From NCBI GenBank assembly GCA_903813345.2, contig CAIIXF020000011.1, forward strand, positions 4,180,571 to 4,244,570: a DNA stretch of 64,000 nt. The letters run 5' to 3'. Both the position numbers and the translations under genes were made by a program. Numbering within the stretch: position 1 is the first letter of the stretch; the number at the start of each line of letters is the position of its first letter. The notes beneath the pieces were generated by a model. It had not been told where the DNA came from and searched no databases. It saw nothing but the letters and a program-made list of their open reading frames with translations. Shown here piece by piece: positions 26,380 through 35,300 of the stretch. The stretch comes from Owenia fusiformis (Eukaryota; Annelida; Polychaeta; Sabellida; Oweniidae).

Positions 26380-29300
26380 CTACAACTCCATTTCTTTGGT
26401 CACCGTATTCTCTATCCAATCAATATAGGCGCTGACTCTCGTGTATATGCCGGGGTATTCCCCGCGAGCACAACCGTACCCCGTAGACACTATCCCGAAG
26501 TGAATGTACTCGTTTTCATTCTCGTTGTGACACACCATCGGACCACCAGAGTCATACTGAAACAATAAATATAAAATTCTCATCATTTTTGATACGCAGT
26601 TATCGTAATCAACTCCTAGGAATACATTAATACACATACATACAAATCCATATTTACATAATTATACTATCAAACAATGTTTTTTACATGTTGGATTGTG
26701 ATTTGGGAAAGTGGCTTTAAATTTCTTTATGTCTGGCGTCACTTATGTTCTGTAACCATTTTTGATATTTTCTCATTGACTCTTACGCTAGCATTGGATG
26801 TTAAGGGAAAAGCCTTGACAATAATATAGGACATATTAATTATTTGACGCGTAACGCGAAAAATCAAAACCAAAAGCAAAACAGTTCACCCTTAAATCAA
26901 ATAAAATGTTTACCCATTACCTGACATGCGTCTCTACCCCCGGCTTTGTATCCGGCACACATCATGTCGGGAGTGACATGCAGCTCCGTAATCTTGCTGT
27001 ATAATTTGTTACACAATGGGTTGGGTACAATTGGGACCTTCACGTGTCGAATTATGTCTGATATGTTTGGCCCACCTGAAAAAGAAATCATTATACCTAA
27101 TTTGATATGATGGGACCACCTGAAAAAGAAATCATCATACCTAATTTGATATGTTGAGCCCACCTAAAAAGGAGATTATCAAACCTAATTTGATATGATG
27201 GCCCACATGAAAAGGAATTATAATACCAAATTTGATATGTTGAGCCCACCTAAAACGAAATTATCATACCTAATTTGATATGTTGGGCCCACCTGAAAAG
27301 GAAATTATCATACCTAATTTGATATGTTGGGCCCACCTGAAAAGGAAAATATCATACCTAATTTGATATGTTGGGCCCACCTGAAAAGGAAATTATCATA
27401 CATAATTTGATATGTTGGGCCAACCTGAAAAAGAAATTACCATACCTAATTTCATATGTTGGGCCCACCTGAAAAGGAAATTATCATACATAATTTGATA
27501 TGTTGGGCCCACCTGGAAAGAAAAGTATCGTACATAATTTGATATGTTGGGCCCACCTGAAAAGGAAATTATCATACCTAATTTGATATGTTGGGCCCAC
27601 CTGAAAAGGAAAATATCATACCTAATTTGATATGTTGGGCCCACCTGAAAAGGAAATTATCATACATAATTTGATATGTTGGGCCAACCTGAAAAAGAAA
27701 TTACCATACCTAATTTCATATGTTGGGCCCACCTGAAAAGGAAATTATCATACATAATTTGATATGTTGGGCCCACCTGGAAAGAAAAGTATCGTACATA
27801 ATTTGATATGTTGGGCCCACCTGAAAAAGAAATCATCATACCTAATTTGATATGTTTGGCCCACCTGAAAAGGAAATTATCATACATAATTTGATATGTT
27901 GGGCCCACCTGAAAATGAAATTTTAATACCTAATTTGATATGTTGGGCCCACCTGAAAAGGAAATTATCATGCCTAATTTGATATGTTTGGCCCACCTGA
28001 AAAGGAAATTATCATGCCTAATTTGATATGTTTGGCCCACCTAAAAAGGAAATTATCATGCCTTATTTGATATGTTTGGCCCACCTGAAAAGGAAATGAT
28101 CATACCTAATTTGATATGTTGGGCTCTGCTAAAATGGAATTATCATACATAATTTTTTGATATTCTATTCATAGCTGGTGATTTTTAAAGCGATGTGACT
28201 GCCCTGTGTGATGTGAACATACATGTATCACGTGTTCAAATGCCATGTGATAAAGAAATCGAAGTACATCATTATTGCATCCATATATGTCATCGATCTG
28301 TTTAAAATTTTCAAAACAACATAATATATCCATGATACCATTGGGTAAAGCTATGTTCAGTGATATATTAATGTATAATACAATGCTTATGGACTTATAT
28401 CTCTATTTCATTCGTGAAGAATATTAGAACAATTTGAGACCGCCATTGACCGACGTCAAAATCTTGGAAACATGGAGGCATGGTAGCAATACGACATGCA
28501 TGTAACATCAGCATAAGAAATTCGGTCCGTCCTATACCTAATATTATAGAGTACTCGAGTTATAATCGCATTGGAGGATATGGTTTCGATTCCCACCAAG
28601 GTAGAGTAACTTTTTAGAACAGCCCTTGGCATTTGATAGCATTATACATACGTTTTGGGGGAAATACTAAATGCTTCCGAGTTCTCCATATGTTACACGA
28701 GATCGTTATGAGTTTTACCTTCAACAGTGTGCCCCCATCCAGCTATCGTACATACAGAACCAGGCTGGTACGTCGCTACGTCTGATTCATCTGGGAGGCA
28801 AGCAACGTTTACATGAGCACCTAACTTTGCAGGGTAGGCTAGTTTAACCAACGCAATATCTCTATTTATTGCGTCCGGAGCTAAAATGTATGAATGTGCA
28901 ATTTGAGTATGTTAGCCCCTTACTTGGCTGAAATGACCAACATAATCAACGAAATATCTGAACTCACACTGTTACATTAATAGGGCGGAATGCAATAATT
29001 TGTTGATTTCATACACTACATTTTTCATACCATTGGGTTACCAACCAAATAATCAATCAATCAAATAGTAGAAGCCTTATTCTTAATATATTATTTCAAT
29101 AATATTTTAGGGACATTTGTAAAAAGTTTCAAAAAGATTTGTAAAGTAGTATTGGTATGGCAACATCTATAAAGTTACTTTATGTATGTACACGCTGTAC
29201 ATGTTACAAAAGGGAAGAAAATACGCTCTAGTAATTTGCTATGTAAAATAATGTTTTCGTAACAAATGAACTTAGAATAAAAATATCAGTTTAAAAACAA

Positions 29301-32300: not shown

Positions 32301-35300
32301 TTTGATACTAATATAATTGATCTTTTAAAGGGGTCACAGTTCTCGTGTATTACGGAAACTAAAATATGTTACATTAGTAAATTAGAGGGTTCATTCATTA
32401 GATTATTTTACGTTAGAAGAACGACGTGCTACATATTAGTAATACATATCTTAATTAATAAGTCTCTGTTCTCATACAGATAATATGCACATTCGTTCAA
32501 ATGATTACAGTTGAAGAATCAAAGCCTGACAATTTGTTATACAGAAACGTAGTAATTGTATCTTAAGATAGTTTTGTGCAATGCAGCTTTAGCCTTTTTC
32601 TTGAAAGTGTTTATTACTTTCTTAGCTGCTAGGGCATCAATATCAAATGGGGCAACACAGACTAGAGACAGACTGATAGTATTTTGCATCTAAAATAAAT
32701 TATTCAATGGCATACATTATCTAAAACATCGAAACGTCCTGACTTCATTTAATGATAACATTTTAATTTAGGGTTTGCCAATTAAATTTAAAGGTCAGAC
32801 GCCACTCCCCTTTTCAATTTTCATTCATTCCGATATCATCCGACTTTTTTCTTCTCTTAGTATATACTGAAATTTGATAATAATATACGCTACATTAAAA
32901 TAGCTCTTTTTGTAAACAAATGCTGGACATGGTGAACGATAAGTGTTAGAGGAAATTAGATTTAAGTATATTCATCCAGTGACAAATTCACACAGGAATT
33001 CAAATCAACACATGAAAGATGAGAGTTTTTAAAAAATGCGTGTAAATTTCCGCATTTCTGCATTTTAAAGTGATGCTGATAGGAAAACGTAACATTCAAC
33101 CATACTCATCTTAACGTAAGTATATAAATTTACAATGCATAAGAAAACATTCTCAACTCGGCCTTCGCTGAAATGGAACGCTCATATTATAGTAAAAATG
33201 AAGCTTATGGCTCTAAAAACAATAATTTTCCTATTTACTTTATTAGGACGATTACTTATTAACTTAATATCTCTGAATTAGTTAAATCATAAATTTAAGA
33301 GGTTTTTTCTCGTAAAACGAATGTAGCTGAACTTTAGAACTAACACGCTCCACTAATGATCGTCGTTTTCCGACTAATCAAGACGTATAACGTCATTGTT
33401 GGAGAATGTGTAGAAACTAATAGAGGCAATGTTCTCGTATCTCTCTCTCTTTAGCAGTTCAAGTATATTCTAAGTACTCAATAATTGGTTTACTATATGA
33501 TAATAATAGTCTACAGAGGCAAAATAGAGTGATTTGGTAATATTAATATAACTGAGTGCAAATTAACAATTCATAGTGAGAAAAAAATAGGTCAAGATCG
33601 AAACGGGATATATCGACTTTACGAACTTGGAACATACACATTCGATCTGGCATTGTACGTTATACGAATCTGCACACAAAAAGGCTTATAAAAGGCTCTT
33701 AACTATCAAAAATGTTTAAATCCTGATATGTATCGAACATTATGTTCCTCTCAAAGCTTATTGTTACTGCAAAATATAGATGTAATTCTAGTTTTGTGTT
33801 TTTAAGGAGTTTGACTAGTTTATTTTTTATATTTTGCTCGTTATACTTTGTCAACAAATTGAAACTACAAGGCTCGTTCGAAAAGTTTTGCACGAAAGCT
33901 TTTTGTATTCGGAACAATGTATACTCATAAGTAGTTACTCAAAGCATCATTCACTTACTCAAAGCAATGGGCAGCAGTTAGTACCCATTGTATACTCATA
34001 AAGTAGCTACTCAAAGCATCATTCACTTACTCAAAGCAATGGGCAGCAGTTAGTACCCATTGTATACTCATAAAGTAGTTACTCAAAGCATCATTCACTT
34101 ACTCAAAGCAATGGGCAGCAGTTTGTACCCATTGTATACTCATAAAGTAGTTACTCAAAGCATCATTCACTTACTCAAAGCAATGGGCAGCAGTTAGTAC
34201 CCATTGTATACTCATAAAGTAGCTACTCAAAGCATCATTCACTTACTCAAAGCAATGGGCAGCAGTTAGTACCCATTGTATACTCATTTAGTAGTTACTC
34301 AAAGCATCATTCACTTACTCAAAGCAATGGGCAGCAGTTAGTACCCATTGTATACTCATTTAGTAGTTACTCAAAGCATCATTCACTTACTCAAAGCAAT
34401 GGGCAGCAGTTAGTACCCATTGTATACTCATAAAGTAGTTACTCAAAACATCATTCACTTACTCAAAGCAATGGGCAGCAGTTAGTACCCATTGTATACT
34501 CATAAAGTAGCTACTCAAAGCATCATTCACTTACTCAAAGCAATGGGCAGCAGTTAGTACCCATTGTATACTCATTTAGTAGTTACTCAAAGCATCATTC
34601 ACTTACTCAAAGCAATGGGCAGCAGTTAGTACCCATTGTATACTCATAAAGTAGTTACTCAAAGCATCATTCACTTACTCAAAGCAATTGGCAGCAGTTA
34701 GTACCCATTGTATACTCATAAAGTAGTTACTCAAAGCATCATTCACTTACTCAAAGCAATGGGCAGCAGTTAGTACCCATTGTATACTCATTTAGTAGTT
34801 ACTCAAAGCATCATTCACTTACTCAAAGCAATGGGCAGCAGTTAGTACCCATTGTATACTCATAAAGTAGTTACTCAAAGCATCATTCACTTACTCAAAG
34901 CAATGGGCAGCAGTTAGTACCCATTGTATACTCATAAAGTAGTTACTCAAAGCATCATTCACTTACTCAAAGCAATGGGCAGCAGTTAGTACCCATTGTA
35001 TACTCATTTAGTAGTTACTCAAAGCATCATTCACTTACTCAAAGCAATGGGCAGCAGTTAGTACCCATTGTATACTCATAAAGTAGTTACTCAAAGCATC
35101 ATTCACTTACTCAAAGCAATGGGCAGCAGTTAGTACCCATTGTATACTCATAAAGTAGTTACTCAAAGCATCATTCACTTACTCAAAGCAATGGGCAGCA
35201 GTTAGTACCCATTGTGGATGAATAAGAGTTCCCCCACATAGGTGTTCATGTTTGCTGCCGTTTACGGAGAGCATCATCGAAACCAACCACGGCCATTCTG

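Follow-up and report, generated by a model that had tools for sequence, protein, structure and literature searches.

Minisatellites across exon-intron borders of a trypsin-like protease gene in the annelid Owenia fusiformis

Minisatellites that run across exon-intron boundaries, named mirages, are described from amphioxus in Adh3, the globin genes BflGb6 and BflGb9, troponin C and PGBD5, where they are reported to be harmless to splicing and, in the case of Adh3, somatically unstable (PMC3087553, PMC3902484). Internal tandem repeats at exon-intron boundaries are also reported for human genes in segmental duplications (PMC2812944), and the Rogers model, as cited in PMC3087553 and PMC2812944, derives intron gain from tandem duplication of a segment with AG/GT proto-splice sites. 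Introns of earthworm metallothionein hold minisatellites as well, and the passages concerned mention no copies of the splice border (PMC12783039). The locus considered here lies in a window of 64,000 nucleotides of Owenia fusiformis (Annelida, Oweniidae; assembly GCA_903813345.2, contig CAIIXF020000011.1, positions 4,180,571 to 4,244,570), to which all positions below refer unless stated otherwise. It is a minus-strand gene for a trypsin-like serine protease, with its catalytic part encoded in region 26380-35390, and repeats touch three of its four catalytic-domain introns and three of its eight junctions.

Two of these repeats are large arrays, with a 72-bp unit at the exon 1 donor and a 44-bp unit at the exon 4 acceptor, and are probably minisatellites of the mirage kind; both consist of head-to-tail copies and in both the unit holds a real exon-intron boundary. 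As in the amphioxus cases that those papers describe, the units found in this genome measure tens to about 160 bp and combine an exon part, the splice site and an intron part, both 5′ and 3′ borders are hit, and the AG or GT is kept in many copies. They differ from the amphioxus descriptions in copy numbers of up to 18 and 25, in a host that is not a cephalochordate, and in the genes concerned (proteases, kinases, kinesins and an exon beside a sampled P450 exon), and for them a rate and a test against chance are available. The human repeats likewise place minisatellite units at exon-intron boundaries; they reportedly alter exons or form new introns, whereas gene structure appears unchanged here. 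The Rogers model, as cited, shares the duplication of a border with splice signals, but no new intron results in this gene and the spare copies lie inside an existing one. Among the matches listed in the open-access literature there is no mirage outside amphioxus and no mirage frequency set against chance.

The repeated borders of the protease gene

Joined, the five exons (Table 1) form one open frame with a catalytic region of 278 aa, which Pfam Trypsin (PF00089) matches over its entire profile (1-220 of 220, E 3.4e-64) and which solved structures of plasma kallikrein and tryptases resemble. The S1 trypsin-like protease motifs TAAHC, DIAL and DSGGP, which we take to be those of the catalytic His, Asp and Ser, are all found in the joined frame, and the normal splice form, with its open frame, is consistent with undisturbed splicing. 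At 26556-26539 the serine motif reads ACQYDSGGP and aligns to ACKGDAGGP of a plasma kallikrein chain; the residue presumed to be Gly 193 of the oxyanion hole is Tyr in this reading. The three splice-junction repeats that the initial annotation assigned to this one gene are all present, and each is recovered by a single uniform detector. Tandem-repeat detection in the window lists no array at the acceptor of exon 5.

Each 72-bp unit of intron 1 comprises 32 bp of exon end with the donor GA/GTAAGTG (the slash marks the border) and 40 bp of intron. The exon-adjacent copy, which shows no difference from the consensus, provides the last 32 bases of exon 1, TAAHC codons included, and the predicted functional donor, with the exon ending at 35183 and the intron opening on GTAAGTG. 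The word GAGTAAG is counted 18 times, once per copy, and the sequence immediately around the donor is identical across all 18 copies. A two-unit query against the same genome returned this array alone among the 17 matches listed. Further along intron 1, at 30610-31690, a sequence with 101-nt inverted arms occurs twice in direct orientation at a distance of about 490 bp (88-93%) and is probably a tandemly duplicated fold-back element.

Nearly all units of the 44-bp array comprise a polypyrimidine tract and an AG together with the opening bases of exon 4, and the last copy supplies the start of that exon together with the predicted functional acceptor, TTTCAG/GTGGGC. Read by hand around single-base shifts, the AG is retained in 23 of the 24 spare copies and lost near 27206. 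Internal duplication is evident, as six units with AG at 27293-27513 equal six others at 27557-27777; the copy at the far end of the array is divergent while these six-unit blocks inside are identical. A paralogous trypsin gene (L079, G000:C10:34262323-34263460; L numbers denote loci of the genome sample described below) carries a 94-bp acceptor array at an exon apparently matching exon 4, an instance distinct from the 44-bp array with the intron position shared.

The third repeat is of another kind. The intron 2 donor, GACGGG/GTAAGG, has one second copy, and the duplication is not a head-to-tail minisatellite, as the repeated part is 35 of 77 bp. The shared stretch is located within or directly beside a 39-bp inverted repeat with arms 95% identical, and the near end of this repeat, at 29802, coincides with base nine of intron 2. 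This inverted repeat is related to an interspersed element, for which a DNA search lists 64 matches spread over this place and 39 further ones (best 40 of 271 candidates), and the best match at each other place falls within 29732-29804. Six fetched copies of the element are alike from TTTTTATGTCAC onward and different before it, which puts the end of the element close behind the intron 2 donor. An element with inverted ends may thus have landed beside the donor, with the border and the start of the element duplicated afterwards. The description of the three duplications as independent is weakened, because the doubled donor sits within a transposon-related inverted repeat.

Table 1. Features of the protease gene and its repeated borders (positions in the window)
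Feature	Position	Strand	Basis or remark
Catalytic exon 1, with the RIVGG start and the TAAHC His	35183..35390	-	translation, joined frame
End of exon 1, last 32 bases, exonic part of the 72-bp unit	35183-35214	-	translation
72-bp minisatellite, 18 copies	33918..35215	-	97% matches; start of intron 1
Catalytic exon 2	29811..29947	-	joined frame
Intron 2 donor border, first copy, predicted functional	29782..29816	-	sequence comparison; GT at 29810-29809
Intron 2 donor border, second copy	29705..29739	-	35 bp, 91% identical, 77 bp away; GT at 29733-29732
Inverted repeat holding the second donor copy	29673..29802	.	arms 29673-29711 and 29764-29802
Catalytic exon 3, Asp of DIAL	28719..28880	-	joined frame
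44-bp minisatellite, 25 copies	27059..28155	-	89% matches; end of intron 3
Catalytic exon 4	26921..27075	-	sequence listing, joined frame; acceptor AG at 27077-27076
Catalytic exon 5, with the QYDSGGP Ser and the stop codon	26380..26556	-	joined frame

Junction-spanning arrays in the genome and the comparison with chance

The genome-wide scan that had been proposed was carried out as a sample of the same genome (498 Mb, 525 contigs), based on a Pfam search of four unrelated families, the trypsins, kinases, P450s and kinesins. This genome gave no match to the GFP family, hemerythrin or COX1; missing GFP genes would speak against an amphioxus source if amphioxus has many of them, but the control of that search gave no match in any genome, and missing hemerythrin is of no help to an annelid assignment. 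A source in amphioxus is not favoured. The match lists come from the best 150 of 527 trypsin, 124 of 876 kinase, 92 of 717 P450 and 122 of 218 kinesin candidates, and exon matches were picked from them by hand (86 of 161, 53 of 144, 30 of 106 and 76 of 144, respectively), with kinesin regions selected by exon density. The sample covers 268 kb in 194 loci, with 490 junctions from 245 exon matches. One tandem detector with units of 15-200 bp was applied throughout; at a slightly narrower setting it reported no array when run on Markov-shuffled versions of the first 169 exon sequences. Of 55 arrays detected 52 were kept, the others being a second view of the L046 array (L050), a second block at L118, and a repeat at L010 taken as coding (a Thr-rich linker). 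Scored as non-spanning were L076 and L185, flagged by position but with no splice site readable in the shared part, as well as L182, where the array begins at the donor, and L142, where it begins just past the exon. The same unit in the related genes L011 and L016 was counted as two, and short or interrupted donor duplications at L022 and L045, for which the detector gave no junction array, were left uncounted.

A junction of a sampled exon is spanned by 14 of the 52 arrays, six at donors and eight at acceptors, each of which was read in the sequence; without L178, which was fetched after its tandem exon copies were visible in the match list, the count is 13 of 51. They lie in the trypsins L025 and L046, in the kinases L102 (both ends of one exon), L118 and L133, and in the kinesins L168, L175, L178, L180, L183, L191 (two) and L193. 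Junctions of neighbouring exons are spanned by four further arrays (L079, L124, L156 and a second array at L168), and arrays without an identifiable junction are also common (34 of 52). Accordingly, 2.9% of sampled junctions carry an array (14 of 490, 95% interval 1.6-4.7%), with 2 of 172 in trypsins, 4 of 166 in kinases and P450s together and 8 of 152 in kinesins; all four of the kinase and P450 cases are in kinases, and none of the 60 sampled P450 junctions is spanned. In the 16 of 18 spanning arrays that were measured, the exon makes up 0.31-0.89 of the unit, a share not different from uniform (Kolmogorov-Smirnov P 0.10), which fits what random seeding predicts. No preferred position of the junction within the unit is seen in these arrays, and the idea of junction-centred units is unsupported by this distribution. 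At L102 (G000:C5:68921-70277), a kinase exon bears an acceptor array (86-bp unit, 3.8 copies) at one end and, at the other, a 71-bp donor duplication. Across G000:C2:23266359-23269174, whose proximal end lies in L178, the match list gives a stretch of one kinesin exon 18 times at a period of 159 bp, and in the part visible in L178 the exon is repeated together with its acceptor.

The number of spanning arrays was compared with random placement in which positions that break an exon are forbidden. The 14 of 52 exceed an expectation of 7.5 with the null pooled over loci (1.9 fold, P 0.010; 0.0125 by Monte Carlo) and of 8.4 with the null kept within each locus (P 0.02). Among the 44 arrays with units up to 100 bp, 12 span a junction where 4.8 would be expected (P 0.0015), a value reached by none of 400 simulations. 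A first pass, run with a slightly stricter null and without the 14 loci added last, had 11 spanning arrays among 41, with 7.9 expected (P 0.12). The excess stems from kinases and kinesins, and in the trypsin subset there is none (2 of 17 arrays against 2.2 expected, per-locus null). Taken together, these data moderately support an overlap with junctions about twofold above chance, at moderate significance only. The same moderate support applies to the initial annotation's statement that the repeats fall on junctions more often than expected; it is not overwhelming, with a first pass short of significance and no excess in trypsins, the family of the gene itself.

The coincidence of three affected junctions among the eight of one gene has a probability of 0.0012 at the 2.9% rate and of 0.00008 at the trypsin rate. 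Owenia is reported to have 26,966 annotated genes (PMC9977687), and with eight junctions each about thirty such genes would be expected, or about two at the trypsin rate. Given this base rate, one gene with three junction repeats is not remarkable; two sampled loci, L102 and L191, have two junction arrays each.

Two other measures were set aside. A fivefold excess, the first hand-counted impression, was dropped once a proper placement null was set. Genome-wide pairs of the donor word CAGGTAAGT 13-43 bases apart number 178, against 82 for the reversed word, with 4020 and 4455 single occurrences, respectively; counted by hand as independent loci, there are about 19 in the first 100 of the 178 listed places (part of C9) and about 18 in the full list of the control. 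This test was rejected as weak, because most occurrences of CAGGTAAGT are estimated not to be true donors and the control word is microsatellite-like.

Origin and meaning of the arrays

The two large arrays probably began as ordinary tandem duplications across an exon-intron border that later expanded, with the doubled donor as a separate event. Tandem duplications would arise throughout the genes of this genome, and an ordinary one may include either an exon end plus the first part of its intron or the last part of an intron plus the beginning of the exon that follows, after which the duplicate would expand within the intron like any minisatellite. Such border seeds would survive because the copy beside the exon body still yields a normal mRNA; duplications wholly within an exon would be purged. 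General knowledge of splicing suggests that the exon-adjacent site would most likely be picked, since it alone borders a complete exon, and that transcripts using a spare copy would meet an early stop and be removed by nonsense-mediated decay. Several events in one gene would then mirror a genome with arrays at about 3% of the junctions sampled. The recurrence of junction-spanning arrays in unrelated families of the same genome supports this origin. Three observations weigh against it. Junction overlap is 1.7-2.5 fold over random placement, and something beyond uniform neutral seeding may therefore act; that as many as 17 and 24 spare copies are tolerated is unexpected if tandem sites compete; and in 11 of 17 arrays the spare copies have diverged less in their exonic than in their intronic part (Wilcoxon P 0.12, not significant), which would hint at constraint if upheld.

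The behaviour of the spare sites bears on what they could be for. In the 72-bp array a stop directly follows the codon spanning the exon end in the 3 of 17 spare copies that were run, and it lies within GAGTAAG, the word present in all 18 units. The spare 44-bp acceptors that have an AG lead to a stop within 10 codons in 21 of 23 cases and at 53 in the other two, and the second donor of intron 2 leads to one after four codons. Owing to these premature stops, the spare sites of the protease gene cannot replace the real ones. This makes it improbable that selection maintains redundant sites, whether as backups or as platforms to which splicing factors bind, since a backup that ends in a premature stop rescues nothing. 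Retention of the GT or AG in 76 of 79 spare copies (17 junction arrays, by script, a figure that takes in only 2 of the 24 spare copies of the 44-bp array) and the hand count for that array would fit such selection, but on average 72 of 79 random dinucleotides are retained too (P 0.17), and the GT is lost in two of the three spare copies at L118 and in the sole spare copy at L124. Selection is neither clearly for nor clearly against the spare sites, and selection for redundancy, one of the two causes offered by the initial annotation, finds no backing in either result. Still less probable is a role of the spare acceptors as recursive splicing points, at which a wrong first cut would be corrected by re-splicing. 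An AG followed directly by GT occurs in 22 of the 24 spare 44-bp units and would restore a donor-like border after the first splice, but GTGGGC is a weak donor, a step of 44 nt is below the usual intron length, and six of the eight sampled acceptor arrays lack this arrangement.

A mutational process tied to splice junctions, the other cause put forward at the outset, might seed the arrays, for example where transcription and splicing are accompanied by breakage or template switching, or where exons duplicate at a higher rate and their internal products are purged. The stronger excess among units up to 100 bp, its presence at both donors and acceptors and in two unrelated families, kinases and kinesins, and the paired arrays at L102 and L191 speak for it. 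On the other side, the excess over all units is modest and did not reach significance in the first pass, trypsins and the 60 P450 junctions add nothing to it, and no position of the junction in the unit is favoured. Nor is a simple cause in composition found, as 34 intronic arrays are only 0.026 in GC above their flanks (P 0.20). A process of this kind is unneeded for a roughly twofold excess and, on balance, rather unlikely. That the copies are an artefact of assembly is highly improbable: long near-identical arrays are hard to assemble and copy number may be off, but the copies differ by substitutions in patterned blocks and similar arrays with different units occur at many places. Ordinary tandem duplication followed by expansion is thus the origin that we favour. 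A more far-reaching version, in which a junction- or exon-linked process seeds arrays at borders several-fold above elsewhere, leaves thousands of genes with spare sites and relies on a spliceosome that ignores up to two dozen decoys, is speculative and doubtful.

Other repeats in the window include an apparent segment duplication about 3.4 kb apart (14788-16224 and 18191-19627), tandem repeats and open frames included; a 27-bp repeat of 13 copies within an open frame, with nine-residue units such as TTAQSGDGQ (6805-7162); and a 137-bp unit of 8.9 copies with 98% matches (60940-62152). At 53697-53736 the 19-bp unit AAGGTAAGCCATACAACCG is exactly doubled and contains the donor-like AAGGTAAG, with no exon established alongside.

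For Owenia, the sample gives a first answer to the question of chance, namely an excess of about twofold with moderate significance. Tandem identical splice sites constitute a natural test of how the spliceosome chooses one site, and since the surroundings of the donor are the same in all 18 copies of the 72-bp array, this choice has to depend on a broader context, for instance the exon. Should 3% of junctions bear arrays, a single genome would hold many such natural tests, together with raw material for new introns and exons.

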